63,316 nucleotides of DNA, from NCBI GenBank assembly GCA_015522645.1, contig WALV01000067.1, forward strand, positions 1-63,316. Reading direction: 5' to 3'. Positions 78 through 30,983 of the stretch are shown here, piece after piece. The DNA comes from Candidatus Tiamatella sp. GTDB lineage: Archaea > Thermoproteota > Thermoprotei_A > Sulfolobales > Acidilobaceae. The notes beneath the pieces are model-generated. The model was not told the DNA's origin. It ran no database searches and was given only the letters and a program-made list of their open reading frames with translations. How positions within the stretch are numbered: the stretch's first letter is position 1; every line of letters begins with the position of its first letter. The position numbers and the translations under genes are program-made.

Positions 78-1876
78 TTATAATTTAAATGGGAAATGTG
101 GGTTTTTCGTTTTATCCAGTATAAAATCTATCATTTGACTGTAAACGCGGATTCTATTACTTATCTTTGCTATACGATGCCCCTCGTCTTCTAGTAGAAT
201 GTATTTCACGTTGACACTTCTTTCCCTAAGCATAGTCACTAGCTGCTCAGCCTCGGATACTGGGACTCTGGTATCATTTTTACCGTGAATAACCATTAGA
301 GGAGCTTTTAACTTGTCAATGTGCGTGATAGGACTCAATTGCATCATTATTTCACCATGCCTATCTGGGTCACCGTACTCAGCCATCCTGTATTTTCTTC
401 TTTGTGGACTGGTATTCCTGATGAAAGTGACAAGGTTTACTATCCAGCTATTTCTACTCCACACCGCCATATATCAGGGTATAATGCCATGGACATCAAG
501 GTTAAGTACCCCCCATACGATCCGCCTGTAACGCATACGTTCCCAGGGTCAAGAAGCCCTTCTTTGACTAGCGAGAGATAAGCGTGATAAACATCCTTGA
601 CAGCCTCTCCCCTTTTCTCTATATCATCCATGTGTGTGAATGTTTTACCGTATCCTATTGAACCGCGGAAGTTAGGTGCTATTACTAGATAGCCGAGGCG
701 GGTGAGGAGTTGGATAATAGGGTTAAACCTGAACGTAGCTTGGCTCTCCGGACCCCCGTGAAGATACATAATGCCTGGATAGGGTTCTCTCCCGGTTACC
801 GGTTTAAATAGAAGGCTGTTTATTTCGAGCCCATCGAATGACTCGTATTTGAAGTGCTCCGGACTAGTGAAATCCTCCTGGTTTAAAAGCAGCTTCGGCG
901 AGTATGTTAGCCTCTTCATTTCACCGGTATTGTTTTCGACCAGGAATATTTCCTCACCTTGCTTGGAGCTTGACAGTGATATAATCAGCCGGGAAAGCTC
1001 CCCGCTATATTCTAGCCTGGTCACATAGCCTCCAGTCGATATAACTTTGAAGGGTTCCCTGTCTCCCTCCAGTTCTAATTTATAGATTTCACTCTCCCCG
1101 TTCTTGTTGACTGAGAAATAAACGGAGTGCCCAGCAAGTGCTAGTTCGTCTACACCCCATTCTCCATGGTAAATGTATCTCCACTTCCTTGTCTCCAGAT
1201 CATATAACCCTATTCCCTTGACCTCGTTGTCTATATTGGTAATGAAAAGGAAATGATCACTGTCAATAGGGATTGGAGAGTAATTAACGGCTTCTCCTTT
1301 GTGCCCAGTTAGATTGTATAGCCTTTTCCCTTCAGTGTCATATAATAATATGTCTGAATCTAGATTGGTGTAGTTCTTGCTCAGCAGTATCCTTGAAGGC
1401 GAAACCCAGTATTCTGCACGCAGTATTCCTTTGTTTTCCATAACTAGCCTAGACTGGCTGTCGAACTTGTAAATGTATAAATCAAAGTTAACTAGATCCC
1501 GTTTATTCGATGTAAATGCTAATGTTGTTCCAAGAGGATCCCATGCCCCAATGTAATTTATGTGATCCATTCCTTCCGATATTTGTATAATACTTTTACC
1601 CGTATCAATGTAGAGTCCCCAGAACTCGTTCCCAATACTATAGTCTGTAGTAAAGGCTATCAATTTCCTGCTTGATATGATATAATCGTCGATTCTGCCT
1701 TCCCATGGTAATGCAAGGTCATGCAGGAATTGTCCGTTTCGAGGGCAGGCCGCCCATAGCTTGTCAATGCCTGTTGTATTTGATATGTAGAATATGCAAT
1801 CACCCCATCCGGGTTTTCCTTCCCTAGCTGATCTAATGCTTAGGTATTTGGTTACCATATAGCTAGTTTCATCCAA
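78..1876 (-). pseudogene. S9 (prolyl oligopeptidase/acylaminoacyl-peptidase) family peptidase, split by a 1-nt frameshift
   Basis: Together the two reading frames encode about 600 residues, a normal size for archaeal acylaminoacyl-peptidase-like enzymes, which release N-terminal residues or degrade peptides in the cytosol. The upstream frame (440-1876) carries a beta-propeller-like N-terminal part and then the alpha/beta-hydrolase nucleophile motif GGSYGGY (Ser about residue 453), and stops right after GVEIAG. The downstream frame (78 to about 443) continues with IVNLVTFIRN, the acid motif GKNDTRV and the His motif EDEGHR, so the triad is split between frames. On the minus strand the junction reads GGA-TAG-TAAAC; one extra A would give GGA-ATA-GTA-AAC and restore EIAG-IVNLVTF. 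The start is TTG at 1876, with GGTGA seven bases upstream. Either the gene is inactivated or the base was lost in sequencing; I see no slippery heptamer for programmed frameshifting. Confidence 0.85.
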
Positions 1877-2018
1877 CGAATTTCACCAGTATTCCATGTA
1901 AATTATATATACAGGCCGTTTCTAACAGGTTCTAGTTATTATGCTGTAATAATATATTAACATAAGTTTATGTATTGGTTTCATTACATTAAAAGATGGT
2001 TTGGTAACCTAATGAAAG

Positions 2019-2693
2019 TCATATCGATAGAATAGCTATGCTCCTTAACAGGTCTGCAGTATCCTCGCATTTATCCGTGCTCATCTCCAGAGAAGTCAGT
2101 GAATTGTATAATGCTGTGCAAGTCCCTGGTGCAGCCTTTATATTGCACCATTCGAGCAGTCTCTCCTCCGTAGCGCTCCGTATGTCATCTGCTTCCTCCT
2201 CCATTTTCTCAACTATTTTAGCTAATTGAATTGTTTTCTTGGGATCATTTCTCACTAGCTTTACCGCTTCAATAATAGTTTCAACGGATTCTCTAACTAG
2301 CTCCGCTATTTTCTCGAGGGGGTCAAGTAGATTTGCCGGTATTTCGCATTCTAGCCTGCAGAGCAATAATATTCTCCTTCCAGCGGATTTCAGGTAAGCC
2401 GCTATATCGTCCGCTACTAGTACAACTCTAAGCAGTTCTTCTCTATCTATAGGATGAAACGTCCCTGTTGAAAGCTGCTCAATTATATGGTCTTTTACTT
2501 TATCCGCATTTCTCTCCTCTTCCTTTATCTGAGTGTATAACTCCTCAACATCTCCCTGTGATTTCCTTCTAAAAGCCTGCACGAGGCCTATCATTGCCTT
2601 ACTAGCCTCGAGTATATGGTTTAGATGCTCCAGCTCCATGGACAGGATTGATTCTTCCCGGCGTTTACTGATCCATGACCACGTGCTAACCAA
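2019..2693 (-). CDS. DUF47/PhoU-like phosphate transport accessory protein
   Basis: This 224-residue all-helical protein fits the DUF47 family (Pit accessory protein, distantly PhoU-like), which is commonly encoded beside Pit phosphate permeases and thought to modulate them. Visible features are repeated charged helices, the segment EEERNADKVKDHIIEQLSTGTFHP near residues 58-81 (acidic metal-binding-type residues), and a second acidic helix EKMEEEADDIRSATEERL near 166-183, giving the usual two-fold three-helix-bundle layout. The TTG start at 2693 lies about 8 nt after a strong GAGGAGGT site. It is 20 nt downstream of pit, so the two are almost certainly one transcript. The family assignment is firm; the regulatory role is known only from context. 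Confidence 0.85.
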   Translation of the reverse strand: MVSTWSWISKRREESILSMELEHLNHILEASKAMIGLVQAFRRKSQGDVEELYTQIKEEERNADKVKDHIIEQLSTGTFHPIDREELLRVVLVADDIAAYLKSAGRRILLLCRLECEIPANLLDPLEKIAELVRESVETIIEAVKLVRNDPKKTIQLAKIVEKMEEEADDIRSATEERLLEWCNIKAAPGTCTALYNSLTSLEMSTDKCEDTADLLRSIAILSI

Positions 2694-2713
2694 TATCTAC
2701 CAACCTCCTCGTT

Positions 2714-3754
2714 CTAAATTATGTACAAAAGGCTATATATTCCCGCGGCCAGCCCCGCAGCTATGGGGAGAGTGAAAACCCAGCCGGCTATGATAAGGCT
2801 AACTATCCTCCAGTCTACCCCGGAGAAGCCTTTCTCTTTGGCCATGCCCACTCCTATAACGGATGAAACGCTTGCATGTGTGGTTGAAACAGGCATCCCC
2901 ATGAGAGTAAATAGGTATACGACGCTAGCATTAGCCAGCTCAGCAGCTGTCCCGGATACATAGTCAAGTCTAGTGATCTTGAATCCTATTGTCATGATTA
3001 CCCTGTAACCCCATAGCAATGCTCCCGTCATTATGCCAAGCCCACCGAGTACTGAAAGGAGGTGCATTGTTTTCACATCGGGTACGCCGAACACTGATGA
3101 GACTACTGATACATACACGCCTGTAGCGTTGCCCACATCGTTTGCTCCATAGGCGTATGCGCTGAAAGCCATGGTAGCGATTAGGAGAACTCTGAATATG
3201 CTTACAGCGTTATATTTCCGTGAAAGCATGTTGCTTGACCATAGGAAGAACACGTACAGTATAGATGCGAGTATCATAGCGCCTAGCGGGCTTGTTATCC
3301 AGCTGAGAACTACTTTTCCAACAACATTCCAGTCTATTTTTGGTGATATTCCAAGGAGATAGCCGTGCATCAAGCCTACGCCAACTATGGCCCCTACAGT
3401 TGAATGTGTAGTGGAGACAGGTAGTCCTTTCCTAGTTGCTATTGTGACCCATAACCCGGCTCCTAGTGAGGCGCTTATAGCCATAATCAGGTCAATATCC
3501 TTCACTACTCCTTTGCCCAGAGTCTTAATTACATGGTATCCCTGGAAGTATGCACCTAGGAATGCGAATAAAGTAAACAATACTACAGTCTTCTTTAACG
3601 ATAATGCTCCTGATCCTACTACCATATTAGTAGGGTTGGCTGCATCATTGCCTCCTAGGTTGAATGCCACATAAAAAGCTAGTAACAGACCTATGCCTAC
3701 TAGGATTTCTGGGCTAATGCTCTCAACAGCCACGCTGTATCTTCCCGATTCCAT
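2714..3754 (-). CDS. pit: Pit-family inorganic phosphate permease
   Basis: This is a 346-residue integral membrane transporter of the PiT (SLC20) family, which imports phosphate as metal-phosphate or with a cation. The two inverted-repeat signatures are clear: NLGGNDAANPTNMVVGSGAL near residues 32-51, and YGANDVGNATGVYV in the second half. The paired TGLPVSTTH-like segments (GLPVSTTHSTVGAIVG and GMPVSTTHASVSSVIG) are also typical. There are about ten hydrophobic segments. ATG start at 3754. The DUF47 partner follows 20 nt downstream. The upstream region is AT-rich and contains GTTTATATAGAAATT (about 3797-3811), a likely shared divergent promoter with the lyase gene on the other side. Confidence 0.93.
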   Translation of the reverse strand: MESGRYSVAVESISPEILVGIGLLLAFYVAFNLGGNDAANPTNMVVGSGALSLKKTVVLFTLFAFLGAYFQGYHVIKTLGKGVVKDIDLIMAISASLGAGLWVTIATRKGLPVSTTHSTVGAIVGVGLMHGYLLGISPKIDWNVVGKVVLSWITSPLGAMILASILYVFFLWSSNMLSRKYNAVSIFRVLLIATMAFSAYAYGANDVGNATGVYVSVVSSVFGVPDVKTMHLLSVLGGLGIMTGALLWGYRVIMTIGFKITRLDYVSGTAAELANASVVYLFTLMGMPVSTTHASVSSVIGVGMAKEKGFSGVDWRIVSLIIAGWVFTLPIAAGLAAGIYSLLYII

Positions 3755-3946: not shown

Positions 3947-5320
3947 TTGGACTTGCCCATAGAGTATTACCGGATTAAGATGATTGAAAAGATAGGGCTT
4001 CCGCCTAGAGAGGAGCGGTATAACCGCTTGGTTGATGCTGGCTGGAACGTGTTTAGATTGAGAAGCCGGGATGTATTCATTGATCTACTAACAGACAGTG
4101 GTACAGGCGCGATGAGTAAGGATCAATGGGCTTCCCTTATGATGGGAGATGAATCATATGCAGGTGCAGACAGCTGGTACAGGTTTAAAGAGGCTGTTGA
4201 GAATGTTCTAGGGTTCCCATTTGTTCTCCCTGTCCACCAGGGCAGGGCTGCAGAGAGAATTTTGTATACCACTCTCCTCGATATTAGTAAGCCAGCCGAC
4301 ATTGTTCCTGCTAACACTCATTTCGATACGGGTAAGGCTGTGATAGAGTTCTACGGTGGCAAACCCTTTGACTTACCTGTTAGGGAGGCCTTAGATTACA
4401 AGACTAACTACCCATTCAAGGGAGATATAGACCTGGAGGAACTGGAGAATACCCTGTCAACAGGGAATGTTTCATTCATCCTGTTAGTTTTAACGAATAA
4501 TACTATGGGAGGCCACCCAGTCTCCCCGGAAAACATCCGTGAAACGAGGAAACTTGCAAGTGATTACGATGTCCCTTTAGTCATGGATATAAGTAGGTTC
4601 GCCGAGAACGCTTTCCTAGTCAAGGAACGCCACCCATCCTACCGGGATAAAAGTGTAAGGGACATAGTTAGAGAAACAATGTCGTATGCGGACCATGTTA
4701 TAATGAGTGCCAAAAAAGACGGATTAGCTAATATTGGCGGGTTCATAGCAACCAGAAGCGAGGAGCTCTATAATAGAATGTCTGGTAGAGTAGTCCTAGA
4801 AGAGGGGTATGTAACCTATGGCGGCCTTGCGGGAAGAGATCTAGACGCTATAGCTACTGGCCTTAGAGAAGTAATTGACGAGGACTATCTCAAGTCAAGG
4901 GTTAGCCAGACACGTTATCTGCATAAAAGACTTGCTGAGGAAGGCGTGGCTGTAGTTCATCCGTACGGAGGTCATGCAGTTTATGTTGATGTGCTTGAAA
5001 CGCTCCCCCATTTACCTAGAGAGCAATTCCCGGCAGATGCATTGGCAGTTCACCTCTATTTAGAGAGCGGTGTTAGAGGCGTAGGATTAGGGGCTCTAGC
5101 ATTTGCAAGAGAGACTGAGGAAGGTGTAGTGTACCCGGAGAACGAGTTTCTGAGGCTAGCTATACCGAGACGAGTTTACACTGTAAGTCATCTCGACTAT
5201 GTTGCAAAGTCGCTAGGGTATGTAGCGAGTAGGCCACGGGAAGTTAAGGGATTAAGGATTGTTTGGGAGCCTCCTATAAGGGGCATAAGACACTTCTTAG
5301 CTAGGCTGGAACCCGTTTAA
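3947..5320 (+). CDS. Tryptophanase / tyrosine phenol-lyase (beta-eliminating lyase family)
   Basis: This PLP fold-type I enzyme cleaves an aromatic amino acid to pyruvate, ammonia and indole or phenol. The N-terminus EYYRIKMIEKIGLP matches the family's E-F-R-I-K-M-V start. Further family marks are LLTDSGTGAMS, the PVHQGRAAER loop, VMDISRFAENAF (Asp contacting the PLP ring) and SAKKDG carrying the PLP Lys. I prefer TTG at 3947 over the longer frame from 3899, because GGGGTG lies about ten bases upstream and the sequence before LDLPIEYYR resembles nothing in the family. The length (458 aa) is normal. Indole versus phenol specificity cannot be read from sequence alone. The gene ends one base from the convergent metF-like gene. 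It fits amino-acid fermentation together with the peptidase. Confidence 0.88.
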   Translation: MDLPIEYYRIKMIEKIGLPPREERYNRLVDAGWNVFRLRSRDVFIDLLTDSGTGAMSKDQWASLMMGDESYAGADSWYRFKEAVENVLGFPFVLPVHQGRAAERILYTTLLDISKPADIVPANTHFDTGKAVIEFYGGKPFDLPVREALDYKTNYPFKGDIDLEELENTLSTGNVSFILLVLTNNTMGGHPVSPENIRETRKLASDYDVPLVMDISRFAENAFLVKERHPSYRDKSVRDIVRETMSYADHVIMSAKKDGLANIGGFIATRSEELYNRMSGRVVLEEGYVTYGGLAGRDLDAIATGLREVIDEDYLKSRVSQTRYLHKRLAEEGVAVVHPYGGHAVYVDVLETLPHLPREQFPADALAVHLYLESGVRGVGLGALAFARETEEGVVYPENEFLRLAIPRRVYTVSHLDYVAKSLGYVASRPREVKGLRIVWEPPIRGIRHFLARLEPV

Positions 5321-5321
5321 C

Positions 5322-6380
5322 CTACTTGCATCGCTTTACTATACTTGCTATTCCCTCAGCGTAGTTCCAGTCCCCGGAGAAGACTATTAGTATGCCGTTT
5401 ACATAGTCTATGGATAATATATTGTTTATCCTATTCTCAAGCTCCTCCAGGGGATCCGGGTTCTCGTGGAGGTTTACATGGAAATGCTTCCTTACTATAT
5501 CCACGTCCCACCTGTTCCTCATAAGCATAACTGTAGCTATCACTGGTAGATTTCGAAGTAACGGGTCATTCTTTATATCCTTTAGTTTTCTAACTGCTTC
5601 ATCGCTGAATAAAGGTTGTGAAACGATGAACTCCATTCCTGCTCTACGTTTAGCTCTAAGCTTCCTAAGCTCTATTTCCCATAGCGAGTACGGGTTAGTC
5701 GCCCCGGCAATATTGAACTCGGGGACTTCTTTTACTTTTCCTCCCATGTAGTCTAACTCGTAATCCCTGAGGAGCCTTAGCATATAGATTAGTCTCACTG
5801 AATCCAAGTCGAAAACAGGTTTAACATGGGGACCTGCCATGAATCCCGGCCAGTCTCCGGTTAAGGCAAGATAGTTCTTCACACCTAGCCAGAGGCCTCC
5901 CAGAGCTGTACTAGTGAGGCTTGCCCGGTTCCTATCTTTACATGATAAATGCACCATTATATCTTCAGTAAACCCGTTTACCCGCAGATAACCGGCGGCT
6001 GCAACAGGGTCTGTTTGAACCCTTCCCAGCGGATTGTCTGTTATAGAAAACCCGTCGACTACTCCTTTGAATGGTCTCGCTTGATCTAGGAACCTTAGCC
6101 CATGGCCGCGTCTACTGGGCTCTAGTTCTATGAGAAACACCTTCTGACCGTTAAGCATTTTCCCCAAAAGTTCGGAGTATCCTTTGATTTCGAGTGAAAC
6201 ATCTTTATAGATAAAACCTGGACCAAGGATAGGGGTCTCCAATACCTCAGGTTTACCCTTGAGAAGCTCTGTATAGGGGCAGGGTCTCCCATCGACTTCG
6301 CATTTACCATTAGAATCCACTCCCCCACAGGGGCCATTTACCATGTTTTTAGGGCAGCCCTCCTGCAATAAGCTCACCAT
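5322..6380 (-). CDS. MetV-MetF fusion: methylenetetrahydrofolate reductase with N-terminal Cys-rich domain
   Basis: The first ~40 residues form a Cys-rich module, CPKNMVNGPCGG-...-CEV-...-CPY with cysteines at 9, 18, 27 and 34. It matches the MTHFR_C/MetV-type domain that partners MetF in acetogens and methylotrophs. From about residue 75 on there is a MetF-like TIM barrel: FLIELEPSRRGHG, DGFSITDNPLGR, VHLSCKDRNR, LALTGDWPG, FNIAGATNPY and GMEFIVSQPLF. The expected product reduces methylene-tetrahydro(folate/pterin) to the methyl form. The 352-residue length equals the two modules together. ATG start at 6380 with no strong ribosome site. A 13-nt inverted repeat lies just before the start. No other C1-branch genes are nearby, so the electron donor and pterin are unknown. 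Confidence 0.85.
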   Translation of the reverse strand: MVSLLQEGCPKNMVNGPCGGVDSNGKCEVDGRPCPYTELLKGKPEVLETPILGPGFIYKDVSLEIKGYSELLGKMLNGQKVFLIELEPSRRGHGLRFLDQARPFKGVVDGFSITDNPLGRVQTDPVAAAGYLRVNGFTEDIMVHLSCKDRNRASLTSTALGGLWLGVKNYLALTGDWPGFMAGPHVKPVFDLDSVRLIYMLRLLRDYELDYMGGKVKEVPEFNIAGATNPYSLWEIELRKLRAKRRAGMEFIVSQPLFSDEAVRKLKDIKNDPLLRNLPVIATVMLMRNRWDVDIVRKHFHVNLHENPDPLEELENRINNILSIDYVNGILIVFSGDWNYAEGIASIVKRCK

Positions 6381-6381
6381 T

Positions 6382-6394
6382 ACTGGTAACCAGT
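6382..6394. promoter_or_regulatory. Inverted repeat at the metF start (possible operator)
   Basis: ACTGGT-A-ACCAGT is a perfect 6-bp inverted repeat around one base, two bases from the ATG of the MetV-MetF gene. It would overlap or flank the transcript start of a short-leader mRNA. It is short enough to occur by chance. Confidence 0.3.
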
Positions 6395-6509
6395 GTCAAA
6401 TCTATTCGGAATGGATTATTAAAACAAGTCATGTATTGGGAGGAAACTGGGAGTAATGCTCAGTTTATTATCTCACTGCTAATAACTAGTTTTTTCCAGG
6501 CGAAGGCGT

Positions 6510-29135: not shown

Positions 29136-30983
29136 TTGAAGAAGCCTTTAATAATAGTATCCGCGGTCCTAATCCTCGTGCTATTAACAGGATCGTTCAT
29201 GGCATATGCAGATTCATCGGCTAATATGCATTCATCGTATGACGGTAGAACTTCAGGGTTCATAAACAGGCCGTCAGGAGCAGGGTTCTTCATTCTGGTA
29301 GGAGCCTCACAAGTAGGGCCACTCAAAGTCCTATACATTTCCGGCAACGCGTATGACAGAGGATACGAATATGGGTATCTTGCAGGAGAAGAGATTTACG
29401 GTATGCTAACATGGGCATACAATATGCTGAGCCATGCACAGGGAATACCGGTAAATACATGGAGGCAAATGCTACTCAAGGCTGTAGGGTTATATGAGAA
29501 ATATATTCCAAGCGAATATATTGATGAAATGAAGGGAATGGCGGATGGATTCAACTACTTCCAGGCAAAATACCCGGGTTTCAGCCTAGGATACAATATA
29601 ACCTACCTAGATATATTGATGATAAATTCATTCGTAGACCTTAGCTGTACAGGGGCAGTTATATCAGGGAACTTAACAGCGGATGGTAATGTGTTAATAG
29701 GCACGACGGTAGATGCAGAACCTTTAGCACCATATTTTATATACGTTGTTGAAAGCCCGGACGAAGGCCACGGCCATAGGGTTGCCTACTTCACAGCTGC
29801 AGGTAGCTTATTCCAGAACGGATTCAATGATGTTGGTGTAGGTATGATAGAGCATCACATAGAGGGTTGGAAAAACGTTATAGGCATGCCTGAAATGATA
29901 AGGGACAGATACGTTCTACAGTACGCTGATAACGTCACAGATGCCATACAGCTATTCAAGGAAATATTTAAACAATACAACTTCTCTGGCTACGGGGACG
30001 ATGTAGCCATCTCGGATATGCAAGGCAATATAGCGAAAATAGAAGTGACACCATATAGGCTAGGGTTCATAGTGAACCCGCATAAAGAGCCTACGTGGCC
30101 GAAGGAGGACCCCTTCCTTAAAACAGGCCGTAAACTGGAGCCCGTGCCTTATATCAAGTACTATAAAGAAGGCTATGGTAGTGTCCTACGTGGGGACGGC
30201 TGGATAGTTAACGGTTTATACACTGTGAATGAAACTGTTGTAGGTATACCGCAACACCCATCCACGTGGCAGGAAGCTATCTCCAGCGGGAACTATAGTT
30301 GGATGTGGGAGGCACCTGAGAGATACATGATAGCCCACTATATTTATGATGCACAGATACGAGGTGAAAAGCTGACACTACGGGATGGAGTTATAATGTC
30401 CCAGCTACCACTTGTGGGGGATGCTCCACATGATGATGGAGCAATTTGGATGGAACCCCAGTTGGGTCTAGCCGTTATATTGAAGGGGCAATCCTCATTC
30501 ACCAAGCCAATATTCCTGCAAGTATTCTTCCCCGAGAGACCGGTTATACTGGGAAGGATCACTTATGGTCAACTAATGGGTGTAGCATACAAGTTAAACG
30601 GCTCCTTAACCTATTTGAACACTTTAATACAGAGGATACAGGATCAAATCCATAACCAGTGCCAGCAATCCACTAGCATCCAGGGCGAGCTCAAGCAACT
30701 CTCGGAGCAACTCACCCAAGCATCTCAGGAATGGGAGGGTGTGATTAGCCAATACCATGGTTTGGAAGCAGATTACCAAGCCCTTACGAGCCAGGGAGAA
30801 CAGATAAACTATAAGGTTCAAGAGGCAAACTCCAATATCGCCGAGATGAACAACACTCTTAACCAGGTCAAGTCAACGGGTTCAACCATAATAGGTTATC
30901 AAGCTGTTATTATCGCCCTACTAGTTATAATCCTTGGACTCCTAGGGTATGTTGCTGCCGCGATTAGACCCCTCTCATCTTAA
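29136..30983 (+). CDS. Membrane-anchored extracellular Ntn hydrolase (peptidase C45 / acyltransferase type)
   Basis: The 615-residue protein starts with a signal peptide or anchor (hydrophobic residues 5-22). GNAYDRGYEYGYLAGEEI (about 70-87) is the family's N-terminal motif. FVDLSCTGAVISGNLTADG places the predicted Ntn nucleophile at Cys171, where the precursor would self-cleave between Ser170 and Cys171. Residues about 500-590 are Gln- and Ser-rich coiled coil (QSTSIQGELKQLSEQLTQAS), followed by a hydrophobic helix (about 590-610) ending in a short charged tail. The enzyme should sit outside the cell on a stalk and cleave an amide or acyl bond; the substrate is unknown. TTG start at 29136. 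Confidence 0.75.
   Translation: MKKPLIIVSAVLILVLLTGSFMAYADSSANMHSSYDGRTSGFINRPSGAGFFILVGASQVGPLKVLYISGNAYDRGYEYGYLAGEEIYGMLTWAYNMLSHAQGIPVNTWRQMLLKAVGLYEKYIPSEYIDEMKGMADGFNYFQAKYPGFSLGYNITYLDILMINSFVDLSCTGAVISGNLTADGNVLIGTTVDAEPLAPYFIYVVESPDEGHGHRVAYFTAAGSLFQNGFNDVGVGMIEHHIEGWKNVIGMPEMIRDRYVLQYADNVTDAIQLFKEIFKQYNFSGYGDDVAISDMQGNIAKIEVTPYRLGFIVNPHKEPTWPKEDPFLKTGRKLEPVPYIKYYKEGYGSVLRGDGWIVNGLYTVNETVVGIPQHPSTWQEAISSGNYSWMWEAPERYMIAHYIYDAQIRGEKLTLRDGVIMSQLPLVGDAPHDDGAIWMEPQLGLAVILKGQSSFTKPIFLQVFFPERPVILGRITYGQLMGVAYKLNGSLTYLNTLIQRIQDQIHNQCQQSTSIQGELKQLSEQLTQASQEWEGVISQYHGLEADYQALTSQGEQINYKVQEANSNIAEMNNTLNQVKSTGSTIIGYQAVIIALLVIILGLLGYVAAAIRPLSS

Follow-up and report, generated by a model that had tools for sequence, protein, structure and literature searches.

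An open reading frame of 615 amino acids with a TTG start was found on the plus strand at 29136-30983 (the end coordinate includes the stop codon) of a 63,316-nucleotide stretch of DNA from Candidatus Tiamatella sp., which is the whole sequence analysed here and is termed the window. The gene stands alone on its strand and is flanked by minus-strand genes, with a calcineurin-type phosphoesterase upstream and NifX/NifB-type and UbiA-type proteins downstream. Its GC content of 45.0% is close to the 43.8% of the window, so that it has no foreign look, and a scan for promoters and terminators with bacterial models returned nothing above shuffled sequences.

The product is predicted to be a stalk-mounted C45-type Ntn hydrolase. 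Residues 1-25 (29136-29210) form a hydrophobic, signal-peptide-like segment, in which an A-Y-A was recognised by eye before the presumed cleavage site. This is followed by an N-terminal (alpha) part, residues 26-170 (29211-29645), which carries the C45 motif SGNxxDRGYEYG and enters the profile match at residue 69, and by a putative catalytic (beta) part, residues 171-470 (29646-30545), of which residues 313-470 lie outside the C45 profile match. A heptad coiled-coil stalk extends from about residue 482 to 590 (30579-30905), and hydropathy places the C-terminal transmembrane helix next to it (best 19-mer 592-610, 30909-30965), with a short Arg-containing tail behind. The layout of signal, head, stalk and anchor is kept, together with Cys171, in all seven full-length members of the family, the window protein included. 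A preceding sequence-only reading had proposed a signal peptide, a C45-type Ntn core with Cys171 as nucleophile, a Gln/Ser-rich coiled-coil stalk and a C-terminal membrane helix, and each of these elements was borne out by the analyses described below or by the layout just given.

The head was assigned through two profile models. NCBIfam NF040521 (C45_proenzyme) matched residues 69-311 over profile positions 1-225 of 313 with an E-value of 1.8e-32 (112.9 bits, cut-off 85), although this model is a broad one that is also passed by a phospholipase B-like protein (L092). The Pfam family AAT, PF03417, matched at 8.1e-7 (29.4 bits, cut-off 23.2), and it likewise exceeded the cut-off in four of the five orthologs scanned, the fifth (L002) reaching 22.6 against 23.2. 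In a profile-profile comparison, the seven-member family profile aligned, at 99.6% across 226 columns, with that of 11 canonical C45 proteins from Thermoproteota, and the latter in turn matched the crystal structure of isopenicillin-N acyltransferase (IAT, 2x1d), which we take to be a MEROPS C45 member, at 5.3e-51.

The predicted nucleophile Cys171 (codon 29646-29648) stands in the context VDLS-C171-TGAV, and the only other cysteine of the protein is Cys509. Cys171, Asp193 (29712-29714), Asn231 (29826-29828) and Glu303 are invariant in the seven full-length members, in all of which the RG...G motif of the alpha part is present too. Among 28 aligned C45 heads, which remained after four fragments had been dropped, the cysteine and Asn231 were found in all 28, the aspartate in 27 and Arg258 in 22, while the position of Glu303 is occupied by Glu in 26 and by Asp in the other two. 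Through bridging alignments, Cys171 and Asp193 correspond to Cys103 and Asp121 of IAT (numbers counted on the printed alignment), and Asn231 to the C45-invariant Asn; the catalytic roles of Cys103, Asp121 and Asn246 in IAT are assumed here. The last of these, the oxyanion Asn of the HTNH motif, found no aligned partner in the profile-profile alignment, which ends at residue 312. Asn314 (30075-30077) is the sole invariant head Asn after Glu303 in the seven members and is, by elimination, a candidate for that role. Beyond residue 312 there is no C45 match, and the final third of the head therefore appears to be rebuilt or strongly diverged.

In the Ntn precursor layout, the RG..G of the alpha part, the nucleophilic Cys, the Asp 18-22 residues further on and a GxN, the window protein thus resembles IAT, whereas it reads GTTVD where IAT has GQNWD, its HTNH motif is not recognisable and its last third has diverged. 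AlphaFold2 models of the full-length protein and of the head, both built from a six-row alignment, gave mean pLDDT values of 35.5 and 36.1, respectively, and a search of viral contigs for relatives that could deepen the alignment yielded 216 pattern matches, none of which was confirmed. A four-layer alpha-beta-beta-alpha fold is accordingly expected on the strength of homology to C45 and IAT. Taken together, the sequence evidence supports a C45-type Ntn hydrolase that is tethered to the membrane outside the cytoplasm and has Cys171 as its predicted nucleophile.

The stalk shows a pronounced heptad periodicity. Its hydrophobicity power at a period of 3.5 was 12.4, a value that was reached by none of 1000 shuffles, compared with 3.25 at 11/3, and the period-3.5 shuffle values were at most 0.024 in all seven family members. 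Two heptad positions are hydrophobic in 79% and 92% of cases, whereas the remaining five do not exceed 15%, and residues 487-582 are rich in Gln, Asn and Ser (18% Gln, 10% Leu, 9% Asn, 9% Ser). The features of an S-layer stalk-type anchor, namely a signal peptide, a coiled coil of at least about 100 residues and a C-terminal membrane helix, are all present. Each family member has exactly one stalk cysteine, at differing places (Cys509 in the window protein, codon 30660-30662); in other genera it occupies a more hydrophobic heptad position and would suit an inter-chain disulfide.

When the family profile was run against 229 genomes of the class, 22 stalk-only places were found beside the seven full-length proteins. 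In 16 of these places the alignment extends to profile position 600 or further and so reaches or crosses the membrane helix. Pfam analysis of ten stalk-profile proteins revealed a Tetrabrachion domain in L018 (1.7e-10) and L024 (8.6e-34), both partial sequences, and a BNR-repeat match in L036 (1.6e-10), while the others gave no informative domain. From a reading of their sequences, L019 looks like a SlaB protein and L016 like a solute-binding protein; the latter (1501-3456, minus strand) carries its solute-binding-like head, judged by eye, on a coiled coil with a membrane helix, and L036 (1-1884, plus strand) joins its BNR repeats to a coiled-coil and membrane-helix end. With heptad-preserving shuffles, the real score was reached in none of 200 trials for the tetrabrachion-type L018 and L024, L016, the candidate S-layer protein of the same genome, L026 and L021, in one of 200 for L034, in four for SlaB and in 65 for L089. 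Because these targets, L089 excepted, had been preselected as hits, the likeness of stalk and anchor is suggestive and does not prove common descent. A PDB search with the stalk gave a single weak match (E 0.8) to the Sulfolobus S-layer chain 8qox_B, which is presumably SlaB. Matches of the stalk to apolipoproteins, viral spike proteins, SMC and other proteins reflected composition only and were disregarded.

The candidate S-layer protein of the same genome offers a yardstick for the position of the enzyme. It is encoded on contig 19 (L064, 8932-13023, minus strand), comprises 1363 amino acids with 45 sequons, and contains a proline-free periodic stretch at about 1034-1340, in which an 11/3 periodicity gives way to 3.5 towards the membrane. 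The roughly 110 residues of the hydrolase stalk at period 3.5 are about a third of the roughly 305 in this protein, which corresponds, at 0.15 nm per residue, to about 16 nm against about 45 nm. This difference in stalk length suggests that the enzyme is placed under the canopy and not on the outermost surface, so that it probably works beneath the S-layer, provided that the candidate is indeed the S-layer protein. The earlier proposal of an enzyme displayed on the outside of the cell was therefore right as to an extracytoplasmic, tethered protein, while display at the outer surface gives way to a probable position beneath the canopy. A further enzyme of surface type is encoded in the same L064 sequence at 4377-6455 on the plus strand, a calcineurin-type phosphoesterase (7.8e-7) that has a linker rich in Thr and a hydrophobic helix at its C-terminus.

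The family is rare. Six full-length orthologs, 50-85% identical overall, bring it to seven members in 48 genomes of the taxonomic family, where an eighth match (G047) consists of the stalk only. The same seven were recovered from the 229 class genomes, only the window's own full-length protein from 398 genomes drawn from the phylum, and five of the seven, all from Acidilobaceae archaeon MAGs, in one scan of a named genome collection. The C45 model itself exceeded its cut-off in 11 of the 229 class genomes and 24 of the 398 phylum genomes. Three of 28 C45 proteins outside the family (those matches that had loci, one with an internal stop being left out) combine a signal segment with a C-terminal membrane helix. 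These exported proteins differ in their linkers, which are Thr-rich in L061 (1351-3489, plus strand), a coiled coil in L089 (715-2700, minus strand) and a collagen-like GPQ repeat in L090 (658-2499, plus strand). In the tree of C45 heads, L061, the pair of L089 and L090, and the window family formed three separated groups, although the deep nodes are unsupported (0.047-0.152).

The explanation that we favour, with moderate confidence, is a secreted, type-I membrane-anchored and self-activating C45 amidohydrolase, similar to acyl-CoA:6-APA acyltransferase and held on a stalk in the quasi-periplasm between the membrane and the S-layer. It is founded on what the sequences display, that is, the C45 homology, the invariant Cys, Asp and Asn, the stalk, the anchor and their conservation. 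The precursor would be exported through Sec and lose its signal peptide, whereupon it would cleave itself before Cys171 into an alpha part of about 145 residues, which would stay bound after cleavage, and a beta part that has the nucleophile at its start. The C-terminal helix and the stalk, as a parallel coiled coil some 16 nm long (about 110 residues), may then hold an oligomer of heads between the membrane and the S-layer; there the enzyme would hydrolyse amide bonds in peptides or in small N-acylated compounds, and the products would be taken up. C45 enzymes act on amide bonds, by cleavage or by transfer, and IAT is an intracellular enzyme that uses acyl-CoA, whereas the window protein is exported and tethered. 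Since acyl-CoA is absent outside the cell, we infer that hydrolysis is likelier than CoA-dependent transfer of the IAT kind. Self-cleavage before the Cys, as proposed here, is described for acid ceramidase, a distant Ntn relative (PMC5915598).

The most substantial rival, which we nevertheless judge unlikely, is that the head has the function of the phospholipase B-like (PLBD) branch and that the protein is a stalked esterase or acyl hydrolase stripping fatty acids from the lipids of other organisms, i.e., from necromass. The head tree speaks for it, because the sister of the window family there is L092 (support 0.954), an archaeal phospholipase B-like protein (1216-2577, minus strand) that matches Pfam PF04916 at 8.8e-16 and shares with the family a related Ntn head and the NDAGL...E motif. 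However, PF04916 does not appear in the Pfam lists of the orthologs L038 and L042, which are complete up to an E-value of 10, while AAT exceeds its cut-off in the proteins given above; nor was PF04916 among the matches listed for the window protein (25 of 30 families). L092 also differs in having neither a hydrophobic signal segment nor a C-terminal membrane segment, and in the alignment it lacks the equivalent of Asp193 that the family keeps.

The mounting of hydrolases on archaeal surface stalks has precedents, from which two further alternatives arise. A 2017 review on S-layers names STABLE, a subtilisin attached to the stalk of tetrabrachion in Staphylothermus marinus, as the one archaeal S-layer component for which enzyme activity has been reported (PMC5744192). 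Like the window protein, it is a hydrolase on an archaeal S-layer coiled-coil stalk, and its host is a hyperthermophilic relative, but STABLE sits on the stalk of another protein, which is right-handed with 11-residue repeats, whereas the Ntn head and its heptad stalk are one polypeptide. Two reports (PMC3958906, PMC6712394) describe SsMTP-1/SSO1175 as a thermopsin-like protease made in peptide-rich medium and its homolog M164_1049 as a paralog of SlaB with the role of a secondary stalk; these share with the window protein an extracellular hydrolase domain, a signal sequence, a C-terminal membrane anchor and, as the stalk comparison suggests for the window protein, a kinship with SlaB, and differ in that the head is a thermopsin-like protease rather than an Ntn hydrolase. 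SlaB and tetrabrachion proteins (L019, L018 and L024) themselves have the coiled coil and C-terminal membrane helix of the window protein and, unlike it, no known enzyme head, L018 and L024 being represented by partial sequences. An enzyme on an S-layer-type stalk is thus already known from STABLE and SSO1175. A search of the open-access literature in one library found no C45 enzyme on an archaeal surface, in agreement with the earlier statement that such an enzyme is little described in Thermoproteota, and the Ntn head on such a stalk is new within the literature searched.

The head might, by analogy, be an envelope maturase, an endopeptidase that processes S-layer or other adjacent surface precursors. 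Its type of anchor is common to S-layer stalk proteins, and a role of this kind is also proposed for STABLE (PMC5744192). The gene is present in only seven of 48 family genomes, whereas every one of them would have to process its S-layer; this makes the proposal distinctly improbable, and so does the fact that C45 enzymes of known activity act on small amides. Just as improbable is a catalytically silent head in a protein that serves as a secondary stalk helping to hold the S-layer, as proposed for M164_1049 (PMC3958906, PMC6712394). The diverged C-terminal third and the missing HTNH motif would fit such a loss of activity, but the invariance of Cys171, Asp193, Asn231 and Glu303 in all seven members is unexpected in a dead head, and SSO1175, the homolog of M164_1049, is described in the same sources as an active protease. 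A still more remote idea, which we hold very unlikely, is that an amine on an S-layer glycoprotein, instead of water, resolves the acyl-enzyme formed at Cys171; the protein would then transfer acyl or peptidyl groups at the surface and couple them to the archaeal coat, as an Ntn-type analogue of sortase carried on a stalk.

For the favoured stalked amidohydrolase, the gene neighbourhood varies between genera, so that the evidence on its substrate is thin. A conserved context was considered and rejected, as the neighbours are a metallophosphatase and a NifX-like gene in the window genus, a phosphate transporter in L039 and L042, and, named by eye, an Opp-type peptide transporter in L040 and L041, two contigs from a single genus. 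Nor is there a conserved pairing with MFS genes, because the one upstream in L041 shares only 22% identity with that of the window. In another Thermoproteota genome, a C45/AAT domain lies in one open frame with PepX_C (the X-Pro dipeptidyl-peptidase C-terminal domain) and PKD (L096, 772-3597, minus strand), a frame that runs off its locus. This frame, the Opp transporter and the thermopsin precedent in peptide-rich medium are weak leads towards peptides, and the enzyme perhaps has a role in peptide or amide nutrition. Lipid amides and cell-wall components of the cell itself, which the sequence-only reading had listed as substrates, find no support, given that archaeal lipids are ether-linked and that these cells, to our knowledge, have no peptidoglycan. 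Its suggestion of quorum quenching by an N-acyl-homoserine-lactone acylase has in its favour only the Ntn fold class, and it finds no support in the profile searches, whose listed matches include no AHL-acylase family, or in the scanned neighbourhood, which contains no signal gene, so that it is the least credible of the readings.

It appears that an archaeon of hot vents holds an amide-cutting enzyme outside its membrane on a coiled-coil stalk of the type found in the S-layers of its relatives. The Ntn head would extend the short list of enzymes known on archaeal surface stalks by a further type and, if this explanation is true, archaeal S-layer anchors may constitute a general mount for quasi-periplasmic enzymes. 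The tethering of C45 proteins at what appear to be three separated places of the tree, by three kinds of linker, makes the question of extracellular digestion directly testable.
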